A program made the position numbers and the translations under genes. From IMG/VR virus record IMGVR_UViG_3300009135_000013, positions 1 through 25,194 of that record: 25,194 bases of DNA, one strand, 5' to 3'. A model generated the notes under the pieces. The model was not told the origin of the DNA, did no database searches, and worked only from the letters and a program-made list of their open reading frames with translations. The stretch comes from a virus. Every line of letters begins with the position of its first letter. Position 1 is the first letter of the stretch. Positions 6,901-24,956 of the stretch are shown here, piece by piece.

Positions 6901-9682
6901 TTAACTGGAGTGCTTCTGCCCGGAGCGCTTCAACTCCGCCAGCTACAAGTGAGGCCATGTTGCCGCTATGAATTGAGAGTCCGGTGTCCTCGTCACCCAA
7001 GCGAGTAAAGCCTGGATTGGTGGCAGTCATGGACTCGAACATCATCTCCGCGCCGCCGGCGGTATTCATCAGGAGCCGGTCGTTCTGGATGATGACTGAA
7101 TTTACAGCGCCAGCAGCGAAGCGAACAATGTCATTGCCAGTGAAGTACATGCCGGTGTTGATGTCACCAACATTACCGAAGGCAACACCACCGGCCGAAC
7201 CATTGGCCGCATGAAAGAGTCCGCCGCTGGTGATACGAGCTTGTGTCTCTTCAACCCAGGCCGCACCATCCCATCGCAGAACAGCGTCAGTTACTGTGCC
7301 GGCAGGCAGCGAACCACCCGCGCCACCACCTGCAGGAGATACGGCAACGATCGCCATGCGTGTGTTGTTCGTTGGCTCACCACCTGAGCCCTCGATGATG
7401 TTGGCGATCTGATAGGTGCGGTACACACCATCGTCGACGAAGGTATCAGTCTCGATGATGATGTACTTGGTTGAGTCGGTACGATCCTGCATGTACAGGA
7501 CAGCACCATCATCGACCAGCGCATCGAGGAACGCAGCAACATCATCGCCAGTGTCATTGGTCTCATGGAGATAGAACTCAGTGGCCAGAGACACGTCAGC
7601 GTTATCGAATCGGATCTGACCAGAGGCAGGAGGCGCAACAGTCTCCGTCCTGTACCGCCAGATGCCAAGACCATTGAAGCCCGGAGGGGTCTGCACCCAA
7701 GCATTGTTGTTGCGAACGTAGTCGTTGCTGTCGGCCGGAGCATCAGCGTAATGAATGTTCGTGTCTGCAATGTGAGAATCAATTGCAGCGTGCGAATTGG
7801 TTCCAATGTTTGCGATCGCAGTATGGTCGATCGACGCTTCAGTGAAATGAATCGTAGCGTCTGCAATGTGCGTGTCGATCTGAGCGTGCGTGTTCGTCCC
7901 GATGTTCAGGATGTTGGTGTGATCGATCGCACCTTCTAGGAAGTGAATCGTACCGTCAGCAATATGAGTATCAATAGCAGCATGGCTATTAACACCAATA
8001 TTCGAAATCGCCGTATGGTCAATGGACGCTTCGGTGAAGTGAATCGTGAGATCAGCGATGTGAGTATCGATCGCAGCATGGCTGTTGACTCCGATATTGC
8101 TGATAGCTGTATGGTCGATCGAACCTTCAGTGAAGTGGATCGTGCCATCCGCAATATGAGTGTCGATCGCAGCATGGCTGTTCACCCCAATGCTCGCAAT
8201 GTTCAGGTGATCGATCGATGCCTCGGTGAAGTGGATCGTCGCATCAGCAATGTGGTTGTCTTGGTTCGTACCATCGAGGGCAACGTCGCGGCCGTCGACA
8301 GTACCGCTGATGATGATGTCACCAGTGATATCGAGATCCCCACCCAAGCGGGACGGCGCAGTACCGGTGTGATCGAGGAAATAAACATTCGTCGCCGCGT
8401 TCAAAAGGGAGCGGACAACAGAGATCACCCGGCCAGCACCACCGAAGGTCATGTTCGGGAAGTTGATACCGTAGTAGGCCGTCATGTTCTCAGTGCCGGC
8501 ACCAGGCTGGAACAGACCAACAGCAGGAGCAAAGCAATCGAGACCCGTTATCGTGCCGAGGTTGACCGTCGAGCCAGCCACCGTTCCGTATGTCGGAGAG
8601 CAGCGCACAGCAGTCTGCGCAGTCTTAGTCATAACCGCGCCAGCGATAAAGGTACGTGTGCCCGGCGAGAAACTAATGCCAGTGATACCGGTAGTCGTGC
8701 TCGTACCAGCCGTGTTCCTCTGGTGCGACATACCGATGTTCATCACCAGCGCAGGAGGCAGGTCGAAGTTGCCGTTGTTTGCTATTACTGCCAGCTCATT
8801 GATGAAGGTAATGGCGCTGAATCCCGGCGCCGCACCAATGTCGTACCTGTTCGTATCCGAGAAGATCGCCGGTATGAATACGCCAGTCACCACGTCGAAG
8901 ACAGTGGAGCAGGAAAGCGCACCGCCTATATAGCTGGCATTGATTGTTGGTGCTGCATCCCAGGTCATGAAGAACTGAGGCTCAGTAGCTTGGAACGTAT
9001 CGTAATCAATTATGATTGCGCGATTGATTGCGATCTGTTCGTCATCCACCCGCATGATGTCGACGTCCAGCTCATCGCGTAGCGCGAACACATCCTCACC
9101 AGCAGAGGGAACATCGAAGGTTACGGGCTGACCAGCGTTCGGAGTGATCTGAGGAACAGCAGGTGTGACACCGTAGATAATTTGCAAACTGGACAGGCCG
9201 AGGGCGGCAGCCAGGTCAACAGAAAAGTCAGGGCCAAGCGACTGCTCAATGTTCAAGATCGTGCCGAACAGACCAGACAAGAAGAAGGCAGTATTCTGCT
9301 GGTTAGCTACAGTGACAGTCTTGGTGGTGCCAGCACCCGAAGCAGTCACGCCATCGCCAACGAAATCGAGGGTATCCGCGAAGCCGGCCAGAGGTGCGCC
9401 TTCATCTTGGATAATCATTCCGGGGAACATACCGGGGAGAGCCTGCCAACTGGCAGAGGTTGGGCCATCGGCCAGCAGCGCCCACCCCACGGTGAGGCCA
9501 GTCAGATCAAGAAGGTTTACCTCGGCAGCAGTCGCACTGACATCGGTAATGTCAGTCTGAACTAATGGGACAGTAGCAGCACCGTCGATGTCATTGAGAA
9601 TCTGTGCAAGCCGTAAGCGTTCAAGATCCTCGGGTGTTGGCCGATTAATTCCTCGCTGCGTATTTCGTATTCGGCGTGGCAT
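3989..9682 (-). CDS. Giant tail fibre / tail appendage protein with 32-residue repeats
   Basis: At 1897 aa this is the largest gene. The N-terminus is basic (MPRRIRNTQRG) and is followed by DVSATAAEVNLLDLTGLTVGW, a sequence type common near the base of phage tail fibres. The remainder is low in Lys and Cys and rich in Gly, Ala, Thr, Asn and Asp, as expected for a trimeric beta-structured fibre or appendage. Residues 477-645 hold five full copies and one partial copy of a 32-residue unit with regularly spaced histidines; a lone copy recurs at 969-1001. The C-terminus (VNEGASTTLYVLDGTTRVDSAGG, then NIWRESATVYYCWGSG) resembles conserved phage fibre ends. It probably mediates host recognition. 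It follows the o-spanin gene with a TAATG overlap. Confidence 0.85.
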   Translation of the reverse strand: MPRRIRNTQRGINRPTPEDLERLRLAQILNDIDGAATVPLVQTDITDVSATAAEVNLLDLTGLTVGWALLADGPTSASWQALPGMFPGMIIQDEGAPLAGFADTLDFVGDGVTASGAGTTKTVTVANQQNTAFFLSGLFGTILNIEQSLGPDFSVDLAAALGLSSLQIIYGVTPAVPQITPNAGQPVTFDVPSAGEDVFALRDELDVDIMRVDDEQIAINRAIIIDYDTFQATEPQFFMTWDAAPTINASYIGGALSCSTVFDVVTGVFIPAIFSDTNRYDIGAAPGFSAITFINELAVIANNGNFDLPPALVMNIGMSHQRNTAGTSTTTGITGISFSPGTRTFIAGAVMTKTAQTAVRCSPTYGTVAGSTVNLGTITGLDCFAPAVGLFQPGAGTENMTAYYGINFPNMTFGGAGRVISVVRSLLNAATNVYFLDHTGTAPSRLGGDLDITGDIIISGTVDGRDVALDGTNQDNHIADATIHFTEASIDHLNIASIGVNSHAAIDTHIADGTIHFTEGSIDHTAISNIGVNSHAAIDTHIADLTIHFTEASIDHTAISNIGVNSHAAIDTHIADGTIHFLEGAIDHTNILNIGTNTHAQIDTHIADATIHFTEASIDHTAIANIGTNSHAAIDSHIADTNIHYADAPADSNDYVRNNNAWVQTPPGFNGLGIWRYRTETVAPPASGQIRFDNADVSLATEFYLHETNDTGDDVAAFLDALVDDGAVLYMQDRTDSTKYIIIETDTFVDDGVYRTYQIANIIEGSGGEPTNNTRMAIVAVSPAGGGAGGSLPAGTVTDAVLRWDGAAWVEETQARITSGGLFHAANGSAGGVAFGNVGDINTGMYFTGNDIVRFAAGAVNSVIIQNDRLLMNTAGGAEMMFESMTATNPGFTRLGDEDTGLSIHSGNMASLVAGGVEALRAEALQLTMGNYVFDTDQAVGAGQDNFVLTYDDAGGQISLEAAAGGVTDHTLLTNIGVNTHAQIDTHIADGTIHFTEASLNLATTYLALDCSNDPLTAPLELTANLIDLNNSGAATAVSIMGRNSAGGINMNVNTTTGHGQLGQISSAGAAEDVWIHMTRDGQVELRHNNTAMARTALIGSGGFEVNNTVTGAGFERVLTTSDLVSDTGITELTGDVTAGPGSGSQAATIPANTVSNTQLADMAANTVKVRTTGSGAPQDLSVITDRIVGNVGGVVQALQGSQVNTMLPLFTSGLKGLTPLSGGGTTNYLRADGTWATPPGTGGSPPGSDTEIIFNNGGAFGASSDFTWTDEHLEIFGAGFQIRIHDDTSAGDSADFGYLHMQDDFFFIGGNDDTASNFPGALSINVVTAQVSIGNVTAIEGLFVGDWSLQANTLGLNDNGSIEFGTGNDVSMLWNSTQFNMVGSGIWSITGFTSINAPAVDADFDNLTATDFNGVALTTAGVATNYLDETGNYSVPAGGGFTPPIDLADNEQIRFGTGQDFLMDFDGTQMHIEHVGATFATIWETAGGGEAINFRDGNTTGAGAAVSIGFADQVGTVYGAIGTTIITSTFFLNAPIGGMSISAAQGINISCGAANEIRSTTGSVWRWYETTEAEYVELDPVSTTQFNINLSNASSSLQFFGANFYRFNDAVVQCEEGLVVNDALGGFITFEDGGIERGSLQFSDTLGLMTLSQTSGHIFRIQRGINTMLEMEETGGLTIYENGAADVDSVNIQHDGADVRVTEVGATQFIFDAVGVAVEQAASTNQLQLSCIGSIARVATSSAVDLRLQRAGIDQFFLQSNTATGNTTGAQVKDHGAILHDVGFNDLRIFNDNVDDTLEAQHAGQMCFKDAATARTLTLASNVDLDFPVETMTTVVNAFTSGNYTVNEGASTTLYVLDGTTRVDSAGGITIGPGGVVNIWRESATVYYCWGSGITP
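6680..6778 (-). repeat. Detached single copy of the 32-residue fibre repeat
   Basis: Residues 969-1001 of the giant appendage protein (DHTLLTNIGVNTHAQIDT, then HIADGTIHFTEASLN) match the repeat unit of the main array. They lie more than 300 residues downstream of it. This copy most resembles unit 4, which also has NTHAQIDT. It suggests segmental duplication or module exchange within the fibre gene. Confidence 0.9.
7748..8254 (-). repeat. Tandem 96-bp repeats encoding a 32-residue histidine-patterned unit
   Basis: There are five complete units plus the first nine residues of a sixth. The consensus begins HIADGTIHFTEASIDH and continues TAISNIGVNSHAAIDT. Histidines occupy positions 1, 8, 16 and 27 of each unit. 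Unit length is constant, while codons differ between copies, so the repeats are old or held by protein selection. The array likely forms a shaft segment of the appendage. Confidence 0.95.
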
Positions 9683-9975
9683 TACTGTTCTCTGAGATAC
9701 TTGACAAGGGCATTGTGCCTCGCCCTGCAGGTGGACGCATCAAGGACGTTGTGCCCGTGAGTGACAAGGATCTGCTCGATGTCGCCAGAGGTGTACTCAG
9801 TTAGTGCCTTGCAGTCCTGCATCAGAAGCGTCGGCAGGGGAGGCAATTTGAATTCCGTTACCGGCACGAACTTGGTTGTTGAGCATCCCTGCATAAGCAG
9901 GGCCAAGATCAGCACACTCAGGGGTAAGCTCCACGATGCGTTCCACCACTTTTGGAATCTCGATCTCGACTTCAC
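9682..9975 (-). CDS. Outer-membrane spanin (o-spanin, Rz1-like lipoprotein)
   Basis: This 97-aa protein has a basic start, a hydrophobic segment (about residues 17-29) and a lipobox-like LLMQGC with the lipidation cysteine at residue 31. A short proline-containing stretch (FKLPPLP) follows. The C-terminal helix holds two more cysteines (LMQDCKAL and DASTCRARH). The mature lipoprotein would sit in the outer membrane and bind the i-spanin to fuse the membranes at lysis. The gene starts inside the i-spanin gene in another frame and overlaps it by 179 bases, as Rz/Rz1 pairs often do. The start is GTG, supported by a strong GGAGAGG at 9980-9986. Met and Gln at -3 and -2 make the lipobox slightly atypical. 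Confidence 0.85.
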   Translation of the reverse strand: MKSRSRFQKWWNASWSLPLSVLILALLMQGCSTTKFVPVTEFKLPPLPTLLMQDCKALTEYTSGDIEQILVTHGHNVLDASTCRARHNALVKYLREQ

Positions 9976-10204
9976 GAATCCTCTCCACTATTTTTTCCTC
10001 GACCCTAATGGCCTCGGTTGCTGCGACCACTGATGCAGCCCATCGAGCTTCCGCTTCTTCCTCTGCTCTGACCTGAGCCTCGATGATGTCTTGCTGCACT
10101 TCCTGGTCGCGCTTGTTGTAGCCGGCAGAGTGAAGACCTTTAGCCGCTGCACCAGCAGCACCGATGATCAGTGCCGCGAGTGCAACGTAAGCCCAGACTT
10201 TCAC
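9797..10204 (-). CDS. Inner-membrane spanin (i-spanin, Rz-like)
   Basis: This 135-aa protein has an N-terminal membrane anchor (about residues 4-22, WAYVALAALIIGAAGAAAK). A long charged helix of periplasmic coiled-coil type follows (about 30-92, with RAEEEAEARWAASVV and VEEKIVERIREVEIEIPKVVERI). A single cysteine lies at about 97, before a disordered Ala/Gly-rich tail. Together with the overlapping lipoprotein gene this is a classic two-component spanin that fuses inner and outer membranes at the end of lysis. Translation starts at GTG overlapping the holin-like gene's stop (GTGA), with AAGG seven bases upstream. Confidence 0.88.
   Translation of the reverse strand: MKVWAYVALAALIIGAAGAAAKGLHSAGYNKRDQEVQQDIIEAQVRAEEEAEARWAASVVAATEAIRVEEKIVERIREVEIEIPKVVERIVELTPECADLGPAYAGMLNNQVRAGNGIQIASPADASDAGLQGTN
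9980..9986 (-). promoter_or_regulatory. Ribosome binding site of the o-spanin gene
   Basis: GGAGAGG lies four bases before a GTG start, within the i-spanin coding sequence. It fixes the GTG as the start of the nested o-spanin gene. Confidence 0.7.
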
Positions 10205-11092: not shown

Positions 11093-12405
11093 CAATCAAG
11101 CCTGTAGCTGATGTGCCAGCCTTCCTCAAGTGCCCGGCTACCAGAGGCAGTCCATGTGGTGAAGCTGTACGAGTTCGCAGCACCACCTGTCGGGTAGTAG
11201 AAATCAATCTGCCCTGACGATTCGATCTTGAACAGGGCGCAGACAAATGCCGAGTTATCGCGAAGGAAGCAGACACCAGTCTGTTGAGTAGCCGGTCGCA
11301 GGGCCACTGGCAGTCCCGTCATGGCGAAGGTCGTAGCGTTCGCAGTGTCAATGATTCCAGCGTGACAGCTCAGGTGAACAACATCGTCGCCACCAGTGAC
11401 CGCGATCCTCGCCCACTCGATCGTGCCTGTGCCGGCGCCCACTACACCAGTGATCGTGCCGGTGAAGTTGCCGCTCGTTGCATCAGCACCGACAGTCAGG
11501 CCGAAGACAGCGCCGAGCTCGTCTTGGAAGTACGGCAGCGCATCGGCTTGGTCGATAAAGAACTGACCAAAGCCCAGAGCATCAGCACCACCCGCCGCTC
11601 TCTCCGGCAGGTAGACACCACCATTCGGATTGTTCAAAAGCAGCTGGCTGGCAGCACCAACGATCTCAACATTGCCCCATGTATCGTCATGCTGAAGCTG
11701 AACTCTTTCAGTACCAAGTCCATTGGTCGATGACACGTAGCCATTCGACTGAGCATTGAAATACCCAACAGCTCGAACACCAGTGTTGAAGTGATACTCG
11801 CTCGATGCACCAGTGAAGTTGATGCCAGCACCAGTGGTGTCGATCGTAGCCGGGTTCGAGGTCTGCGAGATTGTCAGAGTCTGGGTTTGTCCAGCATCTT
11901 CCATTGAGAGTACGCCGCCGAGCTCCATCACGATGCTGTTGTCTGTCGTATTGCCTACGTCAGTGACCTGCTGGAGACTGTTGGTTAAAACTCCGCCAGC
12001 CTGGTTCGCGGCCAGCTCCTGCATGATCGCGATGTGGTTGTTCTGCTCATCGTTCAGCAACGGCATAGAGAACGGGCCAGTCGTCGGATAGTTGGAAAGC
12101 CTCTCGATGACCGTTGATCGCAAGATCCTGATACTCGAGTTCAAGTCGGCACCAATGGGCAAAACAAGTGTGATCTCGCCGCCAGTAAATCCGCTGCCTT
12201 CCTGTCCCGGTGGGACTGTTAGAGATGAGAAGAAGTAATCAGTGATCAGCTCGTACACGGTCTCGACAAGCAGGGCATCAGTGACGATAACAACAACGTC
12301 CTGTTGCTTGAGGAAAGAGAACGGCACAACAAAAGGGCCGACACTGGATGATGTGACCGCGTAGCTAACGTCGATCGGTTCGCTTGGGATTGAAATTTGA
12401 GTCAT
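11092..12405 (-). CDS. Tail fibre / tail spike protein
   Basis: This 437-aa protein begins with the virion-attachment type of N-terminus common to podovirus fibres: FVVPFSFLKQQDVVVIV near residues 25-41, SGFTGGEITLVLPIG, then RILRSTVIERLSNYPTTGPF and NDEQNNHIAIMQEL near 92-131. The central part is Gly/Asn-rich beta structure. The C-terminal domain (WARIAVTGGDDVVHLSCHAG, GLPVALRPATQQ, then SSGQIDFYYP and GWHISYRLD) resembles the compact beta-sandwich tips of many phage fibres (a GLPxxLRP pattern). It probably attaches directly to the tail tube and contacts the host or carries further fibres. ATGA couples it to the 1370-aa ejection protein gene, and GAGG lies seven bases before the start. Confidence 0.87.
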   Translation of the reverse strand: MTQISIPSEPIDVSYAVTSSSVGPFVVPFSFLKQQDVVVIVTDALLVETVYELITDYFFSSLTVPPGQEGSGFTGGEITLVLPIGADLNSSIRILRSTVIERLSNYPTTGPFSMPLLNDEQNNHIAIMQELAANQAGGVLTNSLQQVTDVGNTTDNSIVMELGGVLSMEDAGQTQTLTISQTSNPATIDTTGAGINFTGASSEYHFNTGVRAVGYFNAQSNGYVSSTNGLGTERVQLQHDDTWGNVEIVGAASQLLLNNPNGGVYLPERAAGGADALGFGQFFIDQADALPYFQDELGAVFGLTVGADATSGNFTGTITGVVGAGTGTIEWARIAVTGGDDVVHLSCHAGIIDTANATTFAMTGLPVALRPATQQTGVCFLRDNSAFVCALFKIESSGQIDFYYPTGGAANSYSFTTWTASGSRALEEGWHISYRLD

Positions 12406-15400
12406 GTCTCTGCCTCGATTGCGTCTGGGATTGCCCGCTGCGCCCTGTTAAATACCTCGTTCCACCAAATCAGATTGTTGTACGGGATCATATACCTGAT
12501 CGCCCTGGCCGCGTCGTCGGTCTCAGCGTTATCAGAAGTCAATCCATACATCAGAGTCAGCCATTGGTTCGGAACTGCGCCTACTGTACCCATTCTGTTC
12601 GCCCAATTGGGAGAACGCTCACGGATGTCCATGCCAAGTGCAGGCCGTATGCCAAACCCACCAGCAGTCATGCGCTCAATAGTGTCGTTCACATCGAGCA
12701 AGATGCCTGTGACTGCGCTTAATTCGACAGCTCGCAGGATCTGTTCTTCAAGTGTCAGTGAAATGTAATCAGGTCGCTTGAAGGCATCGACCATCATGGC
12801 AATGCCAACCATTGACGCGAATCCTGCGTACTTCTGCATACCCTTCTGGTGGATACCTGCACCCATGATCCGATGCGTAGCAGCGATCGAGAATCCTCGA
12901 TACTGCCCGATCACTTTCCACCACTCTCCCTTGAGCAGCGCCTTCGGTTTGTCCACCGCACCCGGCGTCGGCACCATCCGTCCGATCTCTGTATTGATTG
13001 CCGCACGGAATGTCCTCTGTCCTTGCTCGCTCACCCACTCTGACGTATTAGCGATGAACATATTTTTGTGCTTGAGCTTGCCGCTGGCTTCCCATTCTTC
13101 AGCAAACTGAATGGCCTGCTGCTTGTTGATGCCAAGACGACTCATGATTGTGATTTCATCTTCAGGAAGATTGCCGGCTCTCCACAGCAGAGAGTTCTCG
13201 ATGATCTTCGATTGCACCATGCCGCCAGAGAAACGACGCGCCATGTCAGTCCACGGGCCGAGCAGGTTGTACAAGAAGAAACGCTGAGAGGCCGCGGCGA
13301 GACCCTTTTCAAACTTGGCCAAGCCGGGATACTTCGATGAGCCGACAGCGATGCCGAAGTCTGTCATCTGGTGGTAGCGCATTCCGAGAATGACTTCGCT
13401 CACAGAGCCGGCCAGGTCAACCTCGGTACGAATCATTTTGACATTGCCATCAGTCAGGCCAGAGGCGAAGTTCTCAACAGCGTATCCAAGTGAGCGACGT
13501 AGCCCCTGAGACATTACGATGTTGCCAGTGTCACCGAGAGCCATGAGAACGCTTCTACCCATCGCTCCCAAGATGTTGAAATTCCTGAGCATTCTGAGAA
13601 TACGAGGAGTGATTGCATCAGGGTTGTCAGGGATCTGGTAGACGCCATGCACGATGTCCCGCAGATCATTCATTGCAGTACGCGCTCCGTCAGCCTCCTC
13701 TATCAACTGTGCTTTCAGTTGCGGATCAGTCGTAGCGTCAGCGAGATCCATAGTCTCTTGATACAACTCATCGATGTGCGTCTGAGCGCGAGCGTCACCG
13801 AACACGCGGGCGGTCTCAATCATCGGAGCAGTTCGAGAAACGTAATGCTGCATCCAGGTCGTGATGTCGCTCTCGATGAGATTCATGTTCAGCAGTTCTT
13901 TATCGTCAAGATCAAGTCTGCGTGCGATTAAAGGGCCGGAAGCTCCGTGGATGTCTGCGCCATCAGCGATGCGTCGCAGTTTTTCGTCGATGATTTCGAT
14001 CTGCTTCTTGGCAGTTCGGGCAGACAGAGCGCCATTAGCGTCACGGAAAGAACCGTCCTCGATCGCGGCCTTGCGACCTTCAAGCCACTGGCGGCTGTTG
14101 CCGTTGTTCGGTGCGTAAGCTCCGTTGTTGCCGGTGTCAGCCTCATGCAAGATCGCTGCATACGCTTCATTGACTCGCGCGCGAACGTCGTCCGGGTGCT
14201 GCGGAATTACATTGCCGTCCTTGTCCCTGAACACCTGCTTCGGGTTGTTAGTGAACTCGCGTGTCAGGATGTTCTTCAGCTCGACCTCTTGAGCCTTCAC
14301 TTCTTCAGCGATCCACATCCTGTGAATGAAGTTCGGATTGTCGGCATCGATGTAGCCCTGCGCCATGTCCTCGAGATCCATCTTCTCAAGTTCCATTTTG
14401 TTCCGCAGGTCACGCAAGCCAGGCGGCAAGGTGTTCTCGGTGTACTTCTTGCTGGCAATCCATCGCTCATTGAAGTTCGCAATATCCTGATCGACCTTCG
14501 CCACACGTTTCGCGATGTTGACCTGTGTCGCGAATACGCCGAGCTTCTTACCCTCGTCACCAATTGACTTGATGATCGGGATGTATAGCTGCGCGGCCTT
14601 CGCCACCTCTGGCACCTCATGCTTGCCGCCATTGGCGATCGCCATGCTGATCTGTCGATCAAACTCCTGAATCGTGAGCTTGCCTTCCGGCGTTTCAGTC
14701 GTTGGCCCTTTGCCTTCCCACCTGTTGACCGTTCCGCGGACTCGCTGCTGCTGGTCGATGAAGAAGTGCTTCACCTGTCCGGACGATTTGCCGTGGCCAG
14801 TGTAGACACGATAGATTTGCTGCGCCTCGCGGGTAGCACCAAGCCACCTGCCGGTGTACTCGATGATAAGAGACTCGACGCTTGGCCCTGTCGTGTGGCC
14901 GAGCTTGTTTCCCTGATTGTTCAGGCCGGGAGTCGACGCCATTCGCAATGCGAACATCTGATATTTGACTGCAATCTCAGGAGCCATTTTTCGCAGGGGA
15001 GTCTTGATGAGCCTCCACCACGGAAATTGATCCAGCTTGCCGAGCAGCGTGTTATAGCCAGTCGGCAACAGATCCCAATCGGCAACCGCCTTCTCATCGA
15101 GTAGCAGCGCAGCTTGGATGTTGATGTCCTGTGCATTCCGCTTGGCGATGATGGCCTGGCGCTTGGCTACCTCTGTTTGCTGGATGAGCTGGTCGAGCGC
15201 GTTCCTCGCTTTGGTCTTGGCGCCACCTGCAACGGGTGCTTTTTCCCACTTCGCAGTGAGTTCTATGACAGCGGCATCGAGAATCTTGACTTCCATCTCG
15301 GCTTTTTCCGCTTGGGCGTTCATGTCATCGAGCGCGACCCTTGCCTCTTTCGGAATCGGGGTAGCGTCGATGAGCGGCAAAACCTCAAACAATGGTTTGC

Positions 15401-16514
15401 CGTCTGTCGCGATACGCTCTCCGCCTTCGACCCTGAAGTTTGGGTTCTCTTTTACGTTGAACCCGTCTTTCTCGAAAGCCTTGAACAGAGCGACAGCATC
15501 CTCGGTCATTCGCTGGAATGGCGTTACCTTCAGTCCGTGTTCTTCTGCGTACTTGAGCGCTTCGCGTACAGCAAAGGATCCAATTCCCTGACGTTGCAGC
15601 TCCTTCGGTACTGACACACCGATCTGTAGCTCGTCTCCGACGTGCCAGGCGGTAACAATCTCTCCGCCGTCCTTGTGTCTGATGGATACGAATTTGCGAT
15701 CGGGGAAAGAGTCATCAATGTGGACTGTCACATCATCAGGATTGACCTTCGTCCACGCTGGATCGCCATAGCTGGCGGCCGATTTGAGTGCAGCAGTTAC
15801 CCGGGCGAACAGGTTCTTCGGAGATCCGCCGTGAGAGTACGGAATGCCGGCGAACATCGAGGTGGTTCCCTGCGGAGGAATCAACTTGTTCAGCGCGGTA
15901 CTGACAGTCATCGTGTTCTTCGGGATCGCACCGACAGCGCCACCAATCAGACCCATGAACAGCGTACCGCCAGCGACCGCGAACAGTGTTTCCTCGGCGG
16001 TAGATGTCGGATCGATCTGATGCCGTATAGCTTCCGTGGTAGCAACGATAGGCGTGCCGCCAGCGAGCGCCCGTTTCAGCCCTACGCCGAATCCCTTACC
16101 GATTGCGAAAGGGACAGGGATCAGGTTGATCGGATCGAGCAAGCCAGCGAACAGGCGAGTGCCGCCCCAATCCTGAAGCTGAGTGCGAAGATCAAGATTT
16201 TCCTCGATCATAAATTTGATGAGTGCAGTTTCTTCTGGCGACGTGGAGAGAGTGAACTCATCCATGAAAGACTCGAAACCATCAAGCTCGCCGGGGATCT
16301 GGAACGGGTTGTATCCCTCTACCACTCGTCGATCTGGTGGACTCAGAGGCACACCGAAACCGCGCGCAGCGCCTGCAAACGTAGCGGCCTGGCCGATAGA
16401 GGTATCCAGAAGGTAAGCGTTGCGAACAGCTCCCAACCAGCTGCCGTTACGCTCACTCTTGTCAGCGTATCGCGGTAGTGGTTGTCCGATGATGTCTCGT
16501 AGCTTTGTCGTCAC
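12402..16514 (-). CDS. Internal virion (ejection) protein with embedded GNAT-like domain
   Basis: This 1370-aa protein is in the position and size class of T7 gp16. The N-terminal part has hydrophobic segments (about residues 120-195, with LLDPINLIPVPFAIGKGFG and FAVAGGTLFMGLIGGAVG), as expected for a protein ejected through the host membrane. Residues about 258-378 look like an inserted GNAT acetyltransferase. Strands precede VSVPKELQRQGIGSFAVREA (acetyl-CoA loop QRQGIG at 307-312), then DAVALFKAFEKDGFNV. A long helical region follows. The C-terminal part (RRFSGGMVQSKIIENSLLWR, KGEWWKVIGQYRGFSIAATHR) is typical of large podovirus ejection proteins. I see no lytic transglycosylase motif, unlike T7 gp16. 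The start is GTG overlapping the previous stop (GTGA). Confidence 0.85.
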   Translation of the reverse strand: MTTKLRDIIGQPLPRYADKSERNGSWLGAVRNAYLLDTSIGQAATFAGAARGFGVPLSPPDRRVVEGYNPFQIPGELDGFESFMDEFTLSTSPEETALIKFMIEENLDLRTQLQDWGGTRLFAGLLDPINLIPVPFAIGKGFGVGLKRALAGGTPIVATTEAIRHQIDPTSTAEETLFAVAGGTLFMGLIGGAVGAIPKNTMTVSTALNKLIPPQGTTSMFAGIPYSHGGSPKNLFARVTAALKSAASYGDPAWTKVNPDDVTVHIDDSFPDRKFVSIRHKDGGEIVTAWHVGDELQIGVSVPKELQRQGIGSFAVREALKYAEEHGLKVTPFQRMTEDAVALFKAFEKDGFNVKENPNFRVEGGERIATDGKPLFEVLPLIDATPIPKEARVALDDMNAQAEKAEMEVKILDAAVIELTAKWEKAPVAGGAKTKARNALDQLIQQTEVAKRQAIIAKRNAQDINIQAALLLDEKAVADWDLLPTGYNTLLGKLDQFPWWRLIKTPLRKMAPEIAVKYQMFALRMASTPGLNNQGNKLGHTTGPSVESLIIEYTGRWLGATREAQQIYRVYTGHGKSSGQVKHFFIDQQQRVRGTVNRWEGKGPTTETPEGKLTIQEFDRQISMAIANGGKHEVPEVAKAAQLYIPIIKSIGDEGKKLGVFATQVNIAKRVAKVDQDIANFNERWIASKKYTENTLPPGLRDLRNKMELEKMDLEDMAQGYIDADNPNFIHRMWIAEEVKAQEVELKNILTREFTNNPKQVFRDKDGNVIPQHPDDVRARVNEAYAAILHEADTGNNGAYAPNNGNSRQWLEGRKAAIEDGSFRDANGALSARTAKKQIEIIDEKLRRIADGADIHGASGPLIARRLDLDDKELLNMNLIESDITTWMQHYVSRTAPMIETARVFGDARAQTHIDELYQETMDLADATTDPQLKAQLIEEADGARTAMNDLRDIVHGVYQIPDNPDAITPRILRMLRNFNILGAMGRSVLMALGDTGNIVMSQGLRRSLGYAVENFASGLTDGNVKMIRTEVDLAGSVSEVILGMRYHQMTDFGIAVGSSKYPGLAKFEKGLAAASQRFFLYNLLGPWTDMARRFSGGMVQSKIIENSLLWRAGNLPEDEITIMSRLGINKQQAIQFAEEWEASGKLKHKNMFIANTSEWVSEQGQRTFRAAINTEIGRMVPTPGAVDKPKALLKGEWWKVIGQYRGFSIAATHRIMGAGIHQKGMQKYAGFASMVGIAMMVDAFKRPDYISLTLEEQILRAVELSAVTGILLDVNDTIERMTAGGFGIRPALGMDIRERSPNWANRMGTVGAVPNQWLTLMYGLTSDNAETDDAARAIRYMIPYNNLIWWNEVFNRAQRAIPDAIEAET

Positions 16515-19111
16515 GGCGATATCGGTATGCGCCTGGCTTCTTCTCTGTCAGTGAGGCCAGTTTCGCGATTCCTCTCCCGTTGTCGTTGCAGCTCTTTTTC
16601 AAATTCCGCTCTCGCGTGATTGAGATTGAACGGAAGAAGTCTACCGAGATTCAGTCCGTCCATCGTTAAGGCTTCTGTCATCACGCCGCCCCTATCCACG
16701 ATAACTATTCTCCAGCTTGGAGTGTAGATCCCCTCGTTGTTGTGGGCTGCTGACAGATCCGAATCAAACTGAAGTCCGGCGTTGACTCCAGCGACAAAGA
16801 CCTCTCCCTCACCACGCAGCTTTGCCATCTCATCGAGCACGTCTTGGAAGTCCTTCCAGACAAACTCCATCAGCTCATCATCGCGGTTGCCATGAGAATC
16901 GACAGCAAAGTTTTCAGGTGGTCGGTCAACTACAGCCCATTCCGGCTTGAGGTCAAACCATGTCTTAGGATTCCAGATCACCGTGTCGTTGTAGTTGCTG
17001 TAACGAAGCGGAGAAAAGCCGATCTTTGAAGCACCGTAGTCGTTCCGATTCATCACATCACGAACCACATGAGCAACAAATGGCATGAACTCAGATTCGC
17101 TGTTCTCGTTGATCTGGCCTGCAAACGGTTTCAAGCCTTCTTCAACTTGTCGCATCAGTTCAGGTGGAATATCGCCTACGTTATCGCCAAACAAATTCCA
17201 ATCGAATTCCGGTGCAGACGTCCGTCCCTGTTGAGTCCAAAGTGAGCGCCAATTCGCTTCGAGTGATCGAGTAATCATCGACTTCGCAGCGTTCATATAT
17301 GCCGCTTTTGATTCCGGGCTTCTGTCTGCCCAATCCTGATAAGGCGAGTGAGATGGATCAGCGAACCTCTCCATTGTCTTGCGGAGATCCTGAGCGGAAA
17401 TTCTTCCATTCCTGCCGAACACGTTGTGAAGCATGTCTCCAAGATCATTGCCGAGAGCGCTGTCGTCTCTCATGTTCCTGCGGAATGTTGGCTGATCCCA
17501 GAACAGGCGAGCGAGTCTCAGCGTCTGGTCGAGCGTGTCCTGATTCATTCCCTCTGAGTTCATCAGGCGTCCGATGATCGTATCTCTCAGTGCATCATCC
17601 CAGATGCCAATGCGACCCATACGCTGCGGAACCACCGCCTCAAGTCGTTGCCACTCAGGATGATTCGGGTCGTTGATGAGATCCGAGTAATACTCGCGAT
17701 TCATATCAACGCCGGTCAGTGCCGTGTAGAACGGAGTGACTTCTGTAGCGCCACCCTTTGTCTGCTCACGGTATCCGCCCGGTATGTTTCCGATTCTCTC
17801 TACTGCTGCGCGCCAATGATCGCGAAGCTCGACTTCTGTGAAGTCGGTCTTCGGCGCTCCACCTCGCAACCTCTCCTGCTCTGCCTCCATCTGAGCGTGC
17901 CATTCAACCCACCCAGGAATGAACGCTTTCTGGAATGCTGTCGGCGCACCACCTGTGCGAGCGACATTCTGCTCCATCAGTTTGAGGATCGCATCACGCA
18001 GCGTGGACTTGTAGCCATTCCCTATGACATTCAAATGCGCCTTGTTGAATTCGCGCACAAGCCTGTCAGTATCGATAGGCGTGTTCTGCGTCAGAGACTC
18101 CATCGCGTGCGGCGCGTACCAGTTGAAGAACTCCTTCATGTCTCGCATCAATCTTGAGTCGAGAGTGTTATCGAATGCTTCAAATTGAGCGCGCACAACG
18201 CCGGTTGCAAACTCAGCGATCGCCATGCGTTCAGCAGGGCTTATCGGCATCTCATCTAATGGGACATGAGCGATTCCGCCAAACTCATCGACCATCGGGA
18301 ATGTGCCTTCGCCCATTGCGAAATTGTTCAGAGCCTCTGCGAACTCGACGTGTGCAACCTCATCACCAGGAGGGAGATTTGAGATCATGTTGGTGATCGA
18401 TGCGACCGCGTACTGTCGATCTAATGCGTCAAGCCTTTCCGCTTTTTCGTCATCCAGCCAGAAGTGCAGCTCATCGCCCTGCTCTATTGCTGCGCGCGCT
18501 TGCAGCATCGCTGCGCCAGATAATTCTGGATCATCGATGTAGCCGGCCATGTCATCCATGTGGCCTTGAATCGTTTGTATTTGTAAGCCTTTGGCCTCTC
18601 TGTGATCGCGCTCTGCCTTCACCCTGATGATGTGGTTGAAGTGCTCGACCATCTTGATCTGAGCGGTGTCGTTGACAGTGGGCTTCAGGTAATCGGGCGC
18701 CAGCTCAGTGACTTTCGAGACATAGCCTTCAGCCAGAATGCGGAACGCTTCAGGATCGAACGGATTGTCAGCAGCAATAACATTCAGATTCTCGGACACA
18801 TCGAGGGTCATCTGCTGCATGTAACGCTGGCTGACCATCTGCGTGTATTCGCGATCGTAGATGCTCGGGGCGAGCAGGCCGTCCTCAGTCATCGGCACAG
18901 TCGGTGCCATCAGGAATCCGTCTACGTCGCGCTCGAAGTTCAGCTTGCCGGCATCGCGTATCGCTTCCTGGGTGCGAATGTCTGCCTGCTTCTCGAACTG
19001 TCGATCAGCAACTTGCCCGGCTGTTCTGACAAGGGCCGGTCCGAAACTGGCTGGAGCCGGCAGCCTGACCTGCGCGGTGCGTATTCCAATCCGTCTGGTT
19101 TCTCTGGCCAT
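16511..19111 (-). CDS. Internal virion (ejection) protein, gp15-like position
   Basis: This 866-aa protein lies between the 185-aa and 1370-aa ejection proteins, as T7 gene 15 does. It is largely soluble and helical, with long charged stretches (GQVADRQFEKQADIRTQEAIRDAGKLNFERDVDGFL near residues 32-67). Tryptophan-rich segments lie later (WRAAVERIGNIPGGYREQT, WLDDEKAERLDALDRQYAVA). The C-terminal part (NLGRLLPFNLNHARAEFEKELQRQRERN) ends in a basic, arginine-rich tail. Such proteins form the periplasmic tunnel that carries DNA into the cell. The assignment rests on gene order, length and composition rather than a recognised motif. Translation is coupled by TAATG to the preceding gene. Confidence 0.75.
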   Translation of the reverse strand: MARETRRIGIRTAQVRLPAPASFGPALVRTAGQVADRQFEKQADIRTQEAIRDAGKLNFERDVDGFLMAPTVPMTEDGLLAPSIYDREYTQMVSQRYMQQMTLDVSENLNVIAADNPFDPEAFRILAEGYVSKVTELAPDYLKPTVNDTAQIKMVEHFNHIIRVKAERDHREAKGLQIQTIQGHMDDMAGYIDDPELSGAAMLQARAAIEQGDELHFWLDDEKAERLDALDRQYAVASITNMISNLPPGDEVAHVEFAEALNNFAMGEGTFPMVDEFGGIAHVPLDEMPISPAERMAIAEFATGVVRAQFEAFDNTLDSRLMRDMKEFFNWYAPHAMESLTQNTPIDTDRLVREFNKAHLNVIGNGYKSTLRDAILKLMEQNVARTGGAPTAFQKAFIPGWVEWHAQMEAEQERLRGGAPKTDFTEVELRDHWRAAVERIGNIPGGYREQTKGGATEVTPFYTALTGVDMNREYYSDLINDPNHPEWQRLEAVVPQRMGRIGIWDDALRDTIIGRLMNSEGMNQDTLDQTLRLARLFWDQPTFRRNMRDDSALGNDLGDMLHNVFGRNGRISAQDLRKTMERFADPSHSPYQDWADRSPESKAAYMNAAKSMITRSLEANWRSLWTQQGRTSAPEFDWNLFGDNVGDIPPELMRQVEEGLKPFAGQINENSESEFMPFVAHVVRDVMNRNDYGASKIGFSPLRYSNYNDTVIWNPKTWFDLKPEWAVVDRPPENFAVDSHGNRDDELMEFVWKDFQDVLDEMAKLRGEGEVFVAGVNAGLQFDSDLSAAHNNEGIYTPSWRIVIVDRGGVMTEALTMDGLNLGRLLPFNLNHARAEFEKELQRQRERNRETGLTDREEARRIPISP

Positions 19112-19668
19112 TATGCGTTCACTCCGGGGCCGAAGCCGGGAACATCAAGAATTCCGACTCCATGAGTTCTGTTGATGCCAGATCCTGAAACAGCCTTCGT
19201 GCCAGTCGGAGGTGATTTCGCTGTCTTTCCGAGTTGCCCTTTCGCATCCATAGCTGACAACGCTGTGCCTGCAATCTCAAAGATTCCAGCAATCGCCGTT
19301 GCCCTGCTGTTCGCTTTCAGTATTGCGATCTGTGCAGACGTACCAGCTCGCGCGGCAAACTTGTTCAGTCGGATGTTTTCAATGTCATCCATTCCCATCT
19401 GGAAGTTGAACGCGCGCGCAGCAATCAGCGACGGTGAAGCCCACGCTTCAATGCCACTGTTTTGCACAAGCATGTCCTCGTTCGCCAAACGCAATGCGAT
19501 GAGCCTTTGGTTCTCCTCATCCAACGCTTGAAGCTCTTGCTGCCGAAGCTCTTGCTCGAGGATCTGTTGTCGTCGTTTGTTTGCATTGATCGTGTCAATG
19601 GTAGTGACAGCAGTACCCGCCGCCATCGCCGCCATTGCTAAGTAAAAAGTTGCACCACCGTCAGCCAT
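19111..19668 (-). CDS. Internal virion protein, gp14-like
   Basis: This 185-aa protein has an N-terminal hydrophobic Ala-rich helix (about residues 7-24, TFYLAMAAMAAGTAVTTI). A long coiled coil follows (about 29-62, NKRRQQILEQELRQQELQ...). A second Ala-rich hydrophobic helix lies near 118-138 (ATAIAGIFEIAGTALSAM), and the end is Gly/Ser/Pro-rich and disordered. This matches the architecture of T7 gp14-type ejection proteins, which form the outer-membrane pore. The position directly after tail tubular protein B and before two large ejection proteins supports it. TAATG overlaps join it to both neighbours, and AGAGG-type sequence precedes its start. Confidence 0.85.
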   Translation of the reverse strand: MADGGATFYLAMAAMAAGTAVTTIDTINANKRRQQILEQELRQQELQALDEENQRLIALRLANEDMLVQNSGIEAWASPSLIAARAFNFQMGMDDIENIRLNKFAARAGTSAQIAILKANSRATAIAGIFEIAGTALSAMDAKGQLGKTAKSPPTGTKAVSGSGINRTHGVGILDVPGFGPGVNA

Positions 19669-22550: not shown

Positions 22551-22835
22551 TTACGTGCCGTTGAGGACAGTGACCGGAGTAGCTTTGGAAGCGCTAGTCA
22601 CAGCCAACATATCGATCGTCGGTGCGTTGTTGTCCGACACGATGATCACATCGCCGTTGTTCAACAGTTCAGCGTGGGGATTGAAATACCCACTCGTCAC
22701 AATTGCGGCGAGGTTATCTGCGTCAGAGCGATACAACCAGAGTGTGTTAGTGCCGACTTGCACGCGATTCATGTTGGTCGCGTCAAAGGCACACGGAAGG
22801 AACCGGAGAACAAATTGTATGAATAGTTTCTTCAC
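22551..22835 (-). CDS. Small head-associated protein (candidate capsid decoration)
   Basis: This 94-aa protein starts at a GTG, two bases after the capsid stop codon, with GGAG eight bases upstream. The core (VQVGTNTLWLYRSDADNLAAIVTSGYFN, LNNGDVIIVSDNN, TIDMLAVTSASK) matches a type of small protein that I recall directly after the capsid gene in many podoviruses. Its function there is unproven, with decoration or head stabilisation suggested. Unlike typical members it carries an N-terminal basic-hydrophobic leader (MKKLFIQFVLRFLPCAF), similar to those of the scaffold and capsid proteins. The hairpin downstream would end the head-gene transcript after this gene. Confidence 0.8.
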   Translation of the reverse strand: MKKLFIQFVLRFLPCAFDATNMNRVQVGTNTLWLYRSDADNLAAIVTSGYFNPHAELLNNGDVIIVSDNNAPTIDMLAVTSASKATPVTVLNGT

Positions 22836-22837
22836 GA

Positions 22838-23701
22838 TTAGGTCTCCGTTGAGCGGATGCGATAGCCACCGAGGTCGTCGATGAGGCACGCATTCATAGA
22901 CATTGAGCCAACCGCGAGATGCGACTGCTCTTTGCCCTGCCAGGTGATGTCCATCATGACATCCTGCCCAGAGGCGTGTCCGACAGCCGACCTGTGGTAT
23001 GCAACATTCTCGCGAATGGTGCCACCGGTCAGTGTAAGACCTGAGAAGGAAAAGACGTGGAAGGAAAACCACGGTTTCGCGCTGAAGCCGACCTTCGGAA
23101 AGGGCAGATCAGATTCTGGAACGAAGTCCAGAGATGCGAACTCAGTGATATTCATGAGGTTTGTCCAGCCTTGCGGAGCAACGCAAAGGAATCGCTGGCC
23201 ATCATCGGGAACGTCGCCATTGCCCATAAACTCATAGGCTTCCTCGACCTTCGCTTGTGTGACTACGCCAGCGGCAGCAGTCTCACCCGTGAAGGTGTCG
23301 GTAATGGCAGTAATGTCCGAATCAGAGGCACGACCCAGGGCGGCAGCGATGGAAGTTGTTACAGCTCCACGCTCGTCATGCTCGATCTTCAGCTCGTCCA
23401 GCTTGTCAATGAACTCACCGCCATAGCGATCAGCGAGAATACATTCGACGTTGGTGTGAACGAGATTCAGAATCGGAACTTGACCGTTCCGGGTCTTGGT
23501 GCCAGCGATACCCTTACCTATGATCTGGAAGGTTGTGGACTTGCCGACGACATTTGTCTTTCGACGAACCGTGTTCAGGAGTTTGGAACCGAAGCGCTGA
23601 TACGCTAAGTGAACTTCACTCTCAAACTGTTTCGTGAAAGCAACGTCAATCGAGTTTTGCTGCCTCGGAAAGAGGGCAAGCAAGAATCGAAGCAAGAACA
23701 T
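22838..23701 (-). CDS. Major capsid protein
   Basis: The 287-aa product belongs to a podovirus capsid family recognised by AFTKQFESEVHLAYQRFGSKL near residues 21-41, NVVGKSTTFQIIGKGIAGTK near 50-69, then LADRYGGEFIDKLDELKIEHDER near 89-111 and AALGRASD near 120. The fold is presumably HK97-like. The start is the ATG at 23701, preceded by GGAG six bases upstream; an ATG ten codons further up lacks this. Before the conserved domain is an extra leader, MFLLRFLLALFPRQQ. A stem-loop covers the 5' untranslated region. High expression is expected from this arrangement. Confidence 0.93.
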   Translation of the reverse strand: MFLLRFLLALFPRQQNSIDVAFTKQFESEVHLAYQRFGSKLLNTVRRKTNVVGKSTTFQIIGKGIAGTKTRNGQVPILNLVHTNVECILADRYGGEFIDKLDELKIEHDERGAVTTSIAAALGRASDSDITAITDTFTGETAAAGVVTQAKVEEAYEFMGNGDVPDDGQRFLCVAPQGWTNLMNITEFASLDFVPESDLPFPKVGFSAKPWFSFHVFSFSGLTLTGGTIRENVAYHRSAVGHASGQDVMMDITWQGKEQSHLAVGSMSMNACLIDDLGGYRIRSTET

Positions 23702-23707
23702 TGATTT

Positions 23708-23711
23708 CTCC
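23708..23711 (-). promoter_or_regulatory. Ribosome binding site of the capsid gene
   Basis: GGAG lies six bases before the ATG at 23701 and decides the capsid start. Its first G closes the base of the upstream stem-loop, so the structure leaves the site almost fully exposed. Confidence 0.75.
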
Positions 23712-23750
23712 AAGTAGGTTGAGGATACCATTCCAGGTTATCTCTACTTG
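23711..23750 (-). promoter_or_regulatory. Stem-loop in the capsid 5' untranslated region
   Basis: A perfect seven-pair outer stem (CAAGTAG with CTACTTG) and an inner six-pair stem (GATAaCC with GGTATC, one bulged A) enclose a TGGAAT loop. Six unpaired bases lie on one side between the stems and one on the other. The structure ends at the capsid ribosome binding site. It lies in the only clear untranslated gap of the head module. It could be a ribonuclease III-type processing site, a 5' stabiliser or a protein-binding operator. No -35/-10 promoter is convincing here. Confidence 0.6.
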
Positions 23751-23755
23751 AAGCC

Positions 23756-23830
23756 TTAGTCGGTTGTGCCGGGGAACCCGGGCCGAGGCAACTGGTAGCG
23801 GCCTTCGACCCGAATAGTAATCCCGTTCAC
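23756..23830 (-). CDS. Candidate 24-residue micro-gene or scaffold frameshift tail
   Basis: A 24-codon frame (MNGITIRVEGR then YQLPRPGFPGTTD) starts at a GTG that overlaps the scaffold stop codon as GTGA, the same coupling used elsewhere in this window. It ends at a TAA just before the capsid stem-loop. There is no obvious independent ribosome binding site. The frame is -1 relative to the scaffold, and CAAAAAC lies in the last scaffold codons, so a minor -1 frameshift product is an alternative. A 24-codon frame can occur by chance, so this is tentative. Confidence 0.4.
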   Translation of the reverse strand: MNGITIRVEGRYQLPRPGFPGTTD

Positions 23831-24651
23831 TGGTTTTTGTAAAGTCTCTCGTACCCGTCCTGCACTTTCTTAATGAATACGGGGTCTTTGTCCTGCCAGT
23901 ATCGCTTGTCGTTTTGCATCGAGCGCAGCTCCTCCAGCGACAGTGGTGCGCCGCCTGAATCTGCGTCGAAATCGCTTGGCCCTGCCTTTTTCATAAGCGT
24001 CTCAAGTGCTTCCACCTGAGCGGCAGAGTTAAGAAGTGGATTCAACGAGGCCAGCTGATCCTCTGTAAGTGAGGTTTCAAGCCAGTTGTGGACTCGCATC
24101 ATGCGATCCTGGCCGTGGTCGCCAAGCTTCCCGATCTCCGCTTGAATGTCCACCATGTTGCCAAGCTCGATGCCGACATACTCATTCAGCGCCTTGTCGA
24201 CAGTCTCCTGAGACATCCCGTTTTCTTTGGCAAAGCCGAAGAACCAGCTCACCAGCGGATCATCGGTAGAGAAATCCAGCTCCACATTATCGGGAATCTT
24301 CAGGTCTTCCGACAGGTTGACGGTGTACTCGTCCGGAGCGGACGCGATCATTTCCGCGCGGATTTCTTCCCTGATCGCGTCGGCGTTGCCTCTGAGTTTT
24401 CCTTCGAGTTCGTTGTAGGCTTTGCCGAGTTGTTCAGACCGAACAGTTTTCGTATCCGGATTCCAAAACTTGTCAGCCACCCAATCTGGCTTGGCGTCTG
24501 GGTCGCTTCCACCGAGGGGCTTTTGCTGACCATCGCCTCCCTCGCCGCCTTCTCCCTCGCCGCCCTCGCCGCCCTCGCCCTCGCCGCCTTCCCCTTCGCC
24601 ATCACCTTCTCCTTTCGGGAACATCCACAACAGCCACTTGAAATATTTCAT
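23827..24651 (-). CDS. Capsid assembly scaffolding protein
   Basis: This 274-aa acidic protein lies directly before the capsid gene, as scaffold genes do. After a leader (MKYFKWLLWMFP) comes a Gly/Glu repeat tract (about residues 13-40). Next is the typical scaffold entry motif KPDWVADKFWNPDTKTVRSEQLGKAYNELEGKL near 54-86, then helical acidic sequence. The C-terminus is basic and aromatic (DKDPVFIKKVQDGYERLYKNQ), the sort of segment that contacts the capsid shell. It would guide procapsid assembly and leave before packaging. Translation starts at an ATG overlapping the previous stop (ATGA), with GAGG upstream. Confidence 0.88.
   Translation of the reverse strand: MKYFKWLLWMFPKGEGDGEGEGGEGEGGEGGEGEGGEGGDGQQKPLGGSDPDAKPDWVADKFWNPDTKTVRSEQLGKAYNELEGKLRGNADAIREEIRAEMIASAPDEYTVNLSEDLKIPDNVELDFSTDDPLVSWFFGFAKENGMSQETVDKALNEYVGIELGNMVDIQAEIGKLGDHGQDRMMRVHNWLETSLTEDQLASLNPLLNSAAQVEALETLMKKAGPSDFDADSGGAPLSLEELRSMQNDKRYWQDKDPVFIKKVQDGYERLYKNQ
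24541..24618 (-). repeat. Low-complexity GEGEGG coding tract
   Basis: Short near-repeats of GGCGAGGGC type on the - strand encode alternating Gly and Glu in the scaffold N-terminus, between the hydrophobic leader and the helical body. It is probably a flexible acidic linker. The DNA is slippage-prone, so copy number may differ between relatives. Confidence 0.8.
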
Positions 24652-24956
24652 GGTTTCTTTTCCTCACCGTCTTTAATTCTTGTTGAAATAATGCCCATCA
24701 GCCAACGGGCTCCTTCCTGATACGGATACGCAAGCGGATCCAAACTCGGCGGTAATACTCGCCCAGTCGTCACAGACTTCAGATAGTCGATAACATCTTG
24801 ACCAGCCGCGCTGTTGAAAATGATTGCAAACTTTTCATTCAGCTCACGCTCAAATTTTGGCGGACGCTTGAGACCATCTGGCCCCACGTATTGCGTCGGC
24901 TTTTTTCGTGTCTTCTTCGGCGGTCGTATGTCCTTACCGGTTATGTCGTCGCTCAT
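24648..24956 (-). CDS. Bbp19-like small phage protein
   Basis: This 102-aa protein lies between portal and scaffold. The N-terminus is basic and disordered (MSDDITGKDIRPPKKTRKKP). The C-terminal half (FERELNEKFAIIFNSAAGQDVIDYLKSVT, then AYPYQEGARWLMGIISTRI) fits the short family named after Bordetella phage Bbp19, which occurs beside portal genes. I recall its pattern as F...F.t..G..VL..L, then ....EG.R..v..I. Its function is unknown; a head assembly or packaging accessory is plausible from position. ATGA overlaps join it to the portal and scaffold genes. Confidence 0.7.
   Translation of the reverse strand: MSDDITGKDIRPPKKTRKKPTQYVGPDGLKRPPKFERELNEKFAIIFNSAAGQDVIDYLKSVTTGRVLPPSLDPLAYPYQEGARWLMGIISTRIKDGEEKKP

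Follow-up and report, generated by a model that had tools for sequence, protein, structure and literature searches.

Why should three neighbouring head proteins of a short-tailed phage, each of them otherwise ordinary, begin with the same kind of short peptide? The question is raised by a 25,194-base virus record, called the window below, whose minus strand encodes the late genes of a T7-like short-tailed phage. The scaffold protein, the major capsid protein (MCP) and a small protein each carry a leader of 12–14 hydrophobic and basic residues ending in a hydrophobic residue and proline, and the sequences and positions that the original prediction had assigned to this shared leader were found to be correct. 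The features of the locus are the following:

23827–24651, minus strand: scaffold protein gene (T7 gp9-type), matching Pfam PF05396 Phage_T7_Capsid assembly protein (E 3.6e-07, residues 123–272)
24616–24651, minus strand: scaffold leader MKYFKWLLWMFP, followed by an acidic Gly-rich linker
24662–24665, minus strand: scaffold ribosome binding site GAGG, read from the sequence and kept in all relatives
22838–23701, minus strand: MCP gene, matching Pfam PF19821 Phage_capsid_2 (E 2.9e-48, residues 19–286)
23666–23701, minus strand: capsid leader MFLLRFLLALFP; leader-less relatives start (M)ANTID at the next residue
23708–23711, minus strand: ribosome binding site GGAG of the capsid leader start, read from the sequence and kept in relatives
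22551–22835, minus strand: gene of the small, probably capsid-bound protein, with a GTG start and 94 residues (phrog_18004)
22794–22835, minus strand: small-protein leader MKKLFIQFVLRFLP, modelled as a helix over residues 2–11
22844–22847, minus strand: ribosome binding site GGAG of the small-protein leader start, read from the sequence and kept in relatives

The MCP also matched phrog_3437 (major head protein) and the MCP of phage LME-1 (9eg4_A, E 8.6e-13), and the portal of the phage carries no leader (MKLSGQALLKRF...). The linker that follows the scaffold leader (24480–24615, minus strand) is rich in Gly, Glu and Asp, and its length and make-up differ among relatives (GEGEGG, PAPAPPP, DPAPDPAP), the body of the protein being conserved.

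Shine-Dalgarno-like sites were found ahead of the three leaders (TGAGGA for the scaffold, TTGGAGA for the capsid protein and ACGGAGA for the small protein), and they are kept in relatives. The list of open reading frames placed the capsid start at 23731, 10 codons earlier than 23701; as a close relative (L001) has a stop just ahead of MFLL, the start was set at 23701. From the leader to about residue 50, the capsid gene of the window shows no ATG, GTG or TTG when read from the sequence, and because no later start codon lies near the domain, the capsid leader must be translated. In the small protein, the ancestral start codon is now a Cys codon, and MNR, the next possible start, falls within the conserved domain and is preceded by no ribosome site. 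An untranslated upstream extension was thus ruled out by the kept ribosome sites and by the lack of an alternative start near the capsid domain, and the arrangement of the gene starts indicates that all three leaders are translated.

The likeness among the three leaders is not a matter of chance. A position-specific score, trained on the leaders, was compared with 898 ribosome-site-backed N-termini of leader-less relatives, among which the maximum was 9.1, whereas the window's three leaders scored from 18.4 to 19.2. In the window no other start reached a score of 6, the one exception being internal to the capsid gene itself and in frame with it. When a leader's own family was excluded from the training, the capsid leader kept a score of 15.1 and the small-protein leader one of 6.8, the scaffold leader reaching only 3.6, so that the shared signature is partly family-specific. 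A cruder leader rule gave 86 hits in 355 kb of leader-clade DNA, which is partly redundant, versus 2 (both in one ORF) in 480 kb of leader-less relatives.

The distribution of the leader was followed by scanning viral contigs with the capsid protein, which yielded 80 loci, and with the terminase, which yielded 79 further loci including a sister group. The 20 nearest capsid relatives (80–94% identity) showed a leader of the type MFLLRFLLGLIFP-M-xxxNSID wherever the start was visible, and the N-terminus of capsid relatives of at most 60% identity, MADNTIS or MANTID, coincided precisely with the residue that follows the leader's proline. Scaffold and small protein followed suit where they were visible, and all three leaders were present in each of the 15 contigs (12 of them distinct) in which all three genes are visible, and a pattern of mostly single leaders was not observed. 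No leader was found on the scaffold, the MCP or the small protein in the terminase-scan loci, which include the sister clade (MCP 58–60% identical), or in any remoter relative, in agreement with the earlier claim that ordinary members of these families lack it. In a maximum-likelihood tree inferred from the post-leader part of 57 capsid proteins, the leader-bearing capsids form one side of a branch with support of 100/99, a topology that indicates one evolutionary gain of the triple leader; because of this single gain, the contig count overstates the strength of the co-occurrence as evidence. In every comparable family the leader stands directly ahead of ancestral residue 1, and in the small protein the C-A after the leader aligns with the M-A of leader-less relatives. 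The leader clade consists of uncultured short-tailed phages, and genome contigs scanned with the capsid protein yielded a single leader-less relative and no clade host.

In three leader-less relatives from Vibrio phages (L114, 2030–2866; L119, 1564–2403; L122, 1607–2446), the scaffold starts with its own short hydrophobic-basic peptide (MFKLANYFTKM, MWTLNKLFAAMKM), followed by an acidic Gly-rich stretch, and the capsid proteins begin with MANLTRDVSP or MANLNRDVSP. It may be that the triple leader is younger, or less common, than an N-terminal anchor on the scaffold.

Leaders were detected on further proteins of the clade. A 39-kb relative (G003) carries them on a protein of 286 residues (MNFLKSILKLFFP-M-AEFS), on one of 168 residues (MKFFMKLLWLFVPR-M-PAYS) and on one of 1332 residues (MRLRDFLRKVLSLFLP-M-DITR). 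In addition, the gp14-position protein of another relative (G001) and its near-copies carries the leader MFDRFLVWVLSRFIP, which is missing from this protein in the window and in other clade members, being found in the L006 group only. For the 286-residue protein, matches were obtained to phrog_240 'head protein' and to Pfam Gp80 'Podophage GP4 fiber I protein' (E 8.9e-62). In its relatives from other phages the alignment sets in at residue 14 or slightly earlier, and those whose start was read are leader-less, as is a 36% relative on another viral contig; scans of viral contigs with the 168-residue and fiber proteins returned few relatives. The fiber-type homologues in four clade contigs (L086, L090, L096 and L097) have leaders of 13, 21, 21 and 26 residues, respectively, on bodies that are about 85% alike, and leader length varies from 11 to 26 residues. 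In several of the added leaders the old start Met still stands right after the proline. The leader families thus comprise the scaffold, the MCP, the small protein and up to four others, and the notion that the leader is confined to three head proteins was ruled out by the fiber-type, gp14-position, 1332-residue and 168-residue bearers in relatives.

Anchored at the proline, the leaders have Leu at position −5 in 36 of 44 distinct sequences and commonly a polar or basic residue at −7 or −8, and the junction reads hydrophobic-hydrophobic-Pro, followed by M, C, R, K, F, T or L. Each of the three families has its own signature (LRFxLGLIFPM in the capsid protein, LLRFLPCA in the small protein and KYLLxLLWLFxPR in the scaffold), and in the small protein no other 7-column window is as conserved as the LRFLPCA junction. 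Codon positions 1, 2 and 3 of the capsid leader differ in 0.38, 0.08 and 0.54 of comparisons, and the capsid leader has a dN/dS of 0.26, the small-protein leader one of 0.23, values which indicate that selection acts on the leader peptide. Judged by their sequences, the three leaders are one kind of element, namely a short N-terminal hydrophobic and basic segment, proline-ended, placed ahead of otherwise ordinary virion proteins. As for codon use, the Cys after the small protein's leader (22791–22793, minus strand) is encoded by TGT in all 17 distinct sequences, TGC being preferred overall (68 to 45); this uniformity may be chance through common descent.

At the DNA level, leader-to-leader matches between genes were no higher than those of synonymous re-encodings of the same peptide (p 0.06–0.78). 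Recent copying of one DNA cassette between genes was therefore left unsupported, as the likeness is no higher than the peptide imposes, and either the copying is old or the leaders arose separately. Within genomes, covariation of the leaders was mostly absent (scaffold–capsid, p 0.06; scaffold–small protein, p 0.38), and DNA identity of the capsid and small-protein leaders gave p 0.001 in one of six tests, uncorrected.

The predicted model of the small protein (mean pLDDT 86) places residues 2–11 as a helix outside the domain, with a mean pLDDT of 75 for residues 1–10 and of 68 for residues 11–20. This model matched the capsid protein orf16 of phage LME-1 (9eg4_H; Z 11.4, rmsd 1.6 over 74 residues, 34% identity), and a sequence profile also related the two (E 4.4e-4); the match to 9eg4 came from a second aligner, a Foldseek search of the model against the PDB alone giving no significant match. 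Since the MCP and orf16 are both present as 7 chains in the LME-1 capsid entry (9EG4), the small protein is probably a stoichiometric capsid-bound protein. The predicted model of the capsid protein was poor (mean pLDDT 38.7). The LME-1 capsid shares with the clade the capsid-protein family and the small capsid-bound fold, but its MCP and orf16 are both leader-less by alignment, orf16 beginning with MAFGINYMGR. The open literature searched yielded no paper on either the LME-1 capsid or leaders of this kind.

Regarding their physical character, the leaders are hydrophobic with a net charge from 0 to +3, some scaffold leaders having no net charge, and most combine K or R with at least 7 hydrophobic residues out of 10, like the basic n-region and hydrophobic h-region of Sec signals. 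A classical Sec signal peptide or anchor is nevertheless not favoured, its defining features being absent: there is no AxA, and in most leaders 10–13 hydrophobic residues are followed by Pro and charged or polar residues, a length too short to span the membrane (about 20), which also speaks against a transmembrane reading. A lipoprotein signal on the small protein was discarded too, as nearly all copies read F-L-P-C versus the lipobox L-[AS]-[GA]-C, and the other families have no Cys after the leader. In the amphipathicity check that had been proposed, the hydrophobic moment exceeded that of shuffles (no more than 5% of shuffles as high) in only 4 of the 14 leaders tested.

From the sequence features we infer that the leader would be a targeting tag acting on new subunits for assembly. 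The reading we favour, and hold tentatively, is that this short targeting peptide of virion proteins is most likely a weak membrane tether, through which virion subunits would be concentrated and assembly would proceed at the cell membrane. A membrane tether is preferred because the bearers lie in different particle parts, the length is flexible and the extreme N-terminus is hydrophobic and basic; moreover, the leader is exactly N-terminal, added ahead of the ancestral first residue. Since scaffold, shell, capsid-bound, Gp80-type fiber and gp14-position proteins belong to different places, a common pre-assembly surface fits better than one site in the finished particle, and since leader length varies over 11–26 residues while the fiber body is about 85% alike, the signal would be physico-chemical rather than shape-fitting. 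A more extended version, which we regard with greater reserve, is that of a sorting tag, in which one peptide type, reusable by unrelated proteins, might gather the proteins of scaffold, shell, cover and appendages at one shared membrane surface, the place of particle building. Against a tether, the amphipathic pattern is weak, net charge is lacking in some scaffold leaders, and the release step lacks a candidate, as no prohead protease was recognised among the proteins searched, which were part of the clade's proteins; furthermore, the strong conservation of the small protein's junction suggests specific recognition rather than greasiness alone. The main rival of the membrane tether, somewhat less likely in our view, is a docking peptide: leader helices would pack on one another or fit into grooves on their virion partners, joining scaffold to capsid, capsid to small protein and fibers to shell, no membrane being involved. 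Scaffold and capsid must meet in assembly, the capsid protein and the small-protein homologue have 7 chains each in the LME-1 entry, every family keeps its own conserved signature, the small protein is most conserved at its junction, the leader of the 168-residue protein is of the scaffold type, and docking would make a release step unnecessary. However, the bearers belong to different parts of the particle, including a Gp80-type fiber, leader length varies within one family, and the pairing of scaffold leaders with capsid or small-protein leaders within genomes shows no clear covariation. The original prediction of a docking peptide joining scaffold, shell and decoration thus stands as to the sharing of the leader and fails as to its being exclusive to the three head proteins, the same leader on fiber and other late proteins making a docking site unique to head proteins unlikely.

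Cleavage of the leader, or its lack of any function as a peptide, are both less likely than a tether or docking. The conserved hydrophobic-hydrophobic-Pro directly ahead of ancestral residue 1 in each comparable family could mark a propeptide that carries proteins into the procapsid and is then cut near the proline, but we consider this improbable: a proline beside the cut is unfavourable for signal peptidase, whose AxA is missing, no protease was recognised in the partial set of proteins searched, and LxE/IxE prohead-protease sites are not consistent at the junction, LxE occurring only inside two scaffold leaders (MKYLLELLWLFLP). The maturation cleavage signal that had also been put forward is, in a T4-type form, disfavoured for the want of a consistent motif, even though the internal proteins of T4, whose head maturation offers the model, have N-terminal targeting propeptides of 10–19 residues (PMC9026906). 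That the leader serves translation start or acts at the RNA level, or is a neutral fusion that was fixed a single time, would agree with its single gain on the capsid tree and its location at gene starts; this appears very improbable, given that second codon positions are the most conserved while synonymous sites vary, that leaders were added again inside the clade, as on the fiber protein and on the gp14-position protein of a single group, and that the leaders of different genes show no DNA-level likeness beyond the peptide's demand.

Short N-terminal targeting peptides in phage heads are already known from T4, and what appears to be new is that, in T7-like phages, a strongly hydrophobic, Pro-ended form stands on the scaffold, the shell, the capsid-bound protein and a fiber protein. 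We know of no earlier example of such leaders, and the open literature searched showed none on virion proteins of T7-like phages in which no prohead protease is recognised. The T4 capsid targeting sequences resemble the leaders in being short N-terminal peptides (about 10–19 residues) common to several otherwise unrelated head-associated proteins, namely IPI, IPII and IPIII, the last of which needs its first 10 residues for incorporation (PMC9026906). However, they are located on internal proteins and are removed by the protease gp21, whereas the leaders of the clade are also present on scaffold, major shell and fiber proteins, are strongly hydrophobic and Pro-ended, and show no consistent gp21-type site. 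T4 head assembly starts at the cytoplasmic face of the inner membrane (PMC9026906); there it is the portal gp20 that makes the membrane contact (YidC), whereas in the clade the portal is leader-less and scaffold and shell bear the leader. A second likeness is offered by MreB of Gram-negative bacteria, which has an extra membrane-binding helix of 7–9 N-terminal residues, absent from the MreB of other bacteria and binding weakly when single and strongly in polymers (PMC3163269), and by the membrane-targeting peptide of bactofilin, MFSKQAKS (PMC12448750). In both cases a very short hydrophobic or basic N-terminal extension is involved, confined to one family branch for MreB, but these are host cytoskeletal proteins with demonstrated membrane binding, which is putative for the phage leaders, and the latter are longer, more hydrophobic, less clearly amphipathic and Pro-ended. 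The T4 and the MreB or bactofilin peptides work alike and are not homologous to the leaders.

The assembly site of T7-like phages without a recognised prohead protease is seldom revealed by sequence. With the leader on several unrelated virion proteins of one clade, and leader-less sisters as controls, the question of how the parts are gathered becomes testable, and should the leader prove to be a transferable tag, foreign proteins could be directed with it into or onto these particles.

Other differences between the leader clade and its relatives were also noticed. Between terminase and portal, the leader clade encodes a small protein with a basic-hydrophobic C-terminal part AFRKKLRGIFSLLSGGF (L085, 16442–16654, minus strand; L083, 16184–16573, plus strand), which has almost no match in leader-less relatives and is a possible candidate partner of the leaders. 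The gp14-, gp15- and gp16-position proteins (window 12402–19668, minus strand) are nearly without matches in leader-less relatives, whereas portal, capsid and terminase do match, and the internal proteins of the leader clade seem to form a set of their own. Finally, two overlapping lysis-type genes in the layout of an Rz/Rz1 pair were found at 9682–10204 of the window (minus strand), where a 97-residue protein with a spanin-like match (phrog_456) lies mostly within another frame of a 135-residue protein that has an N-terminal hydrophobic segment.
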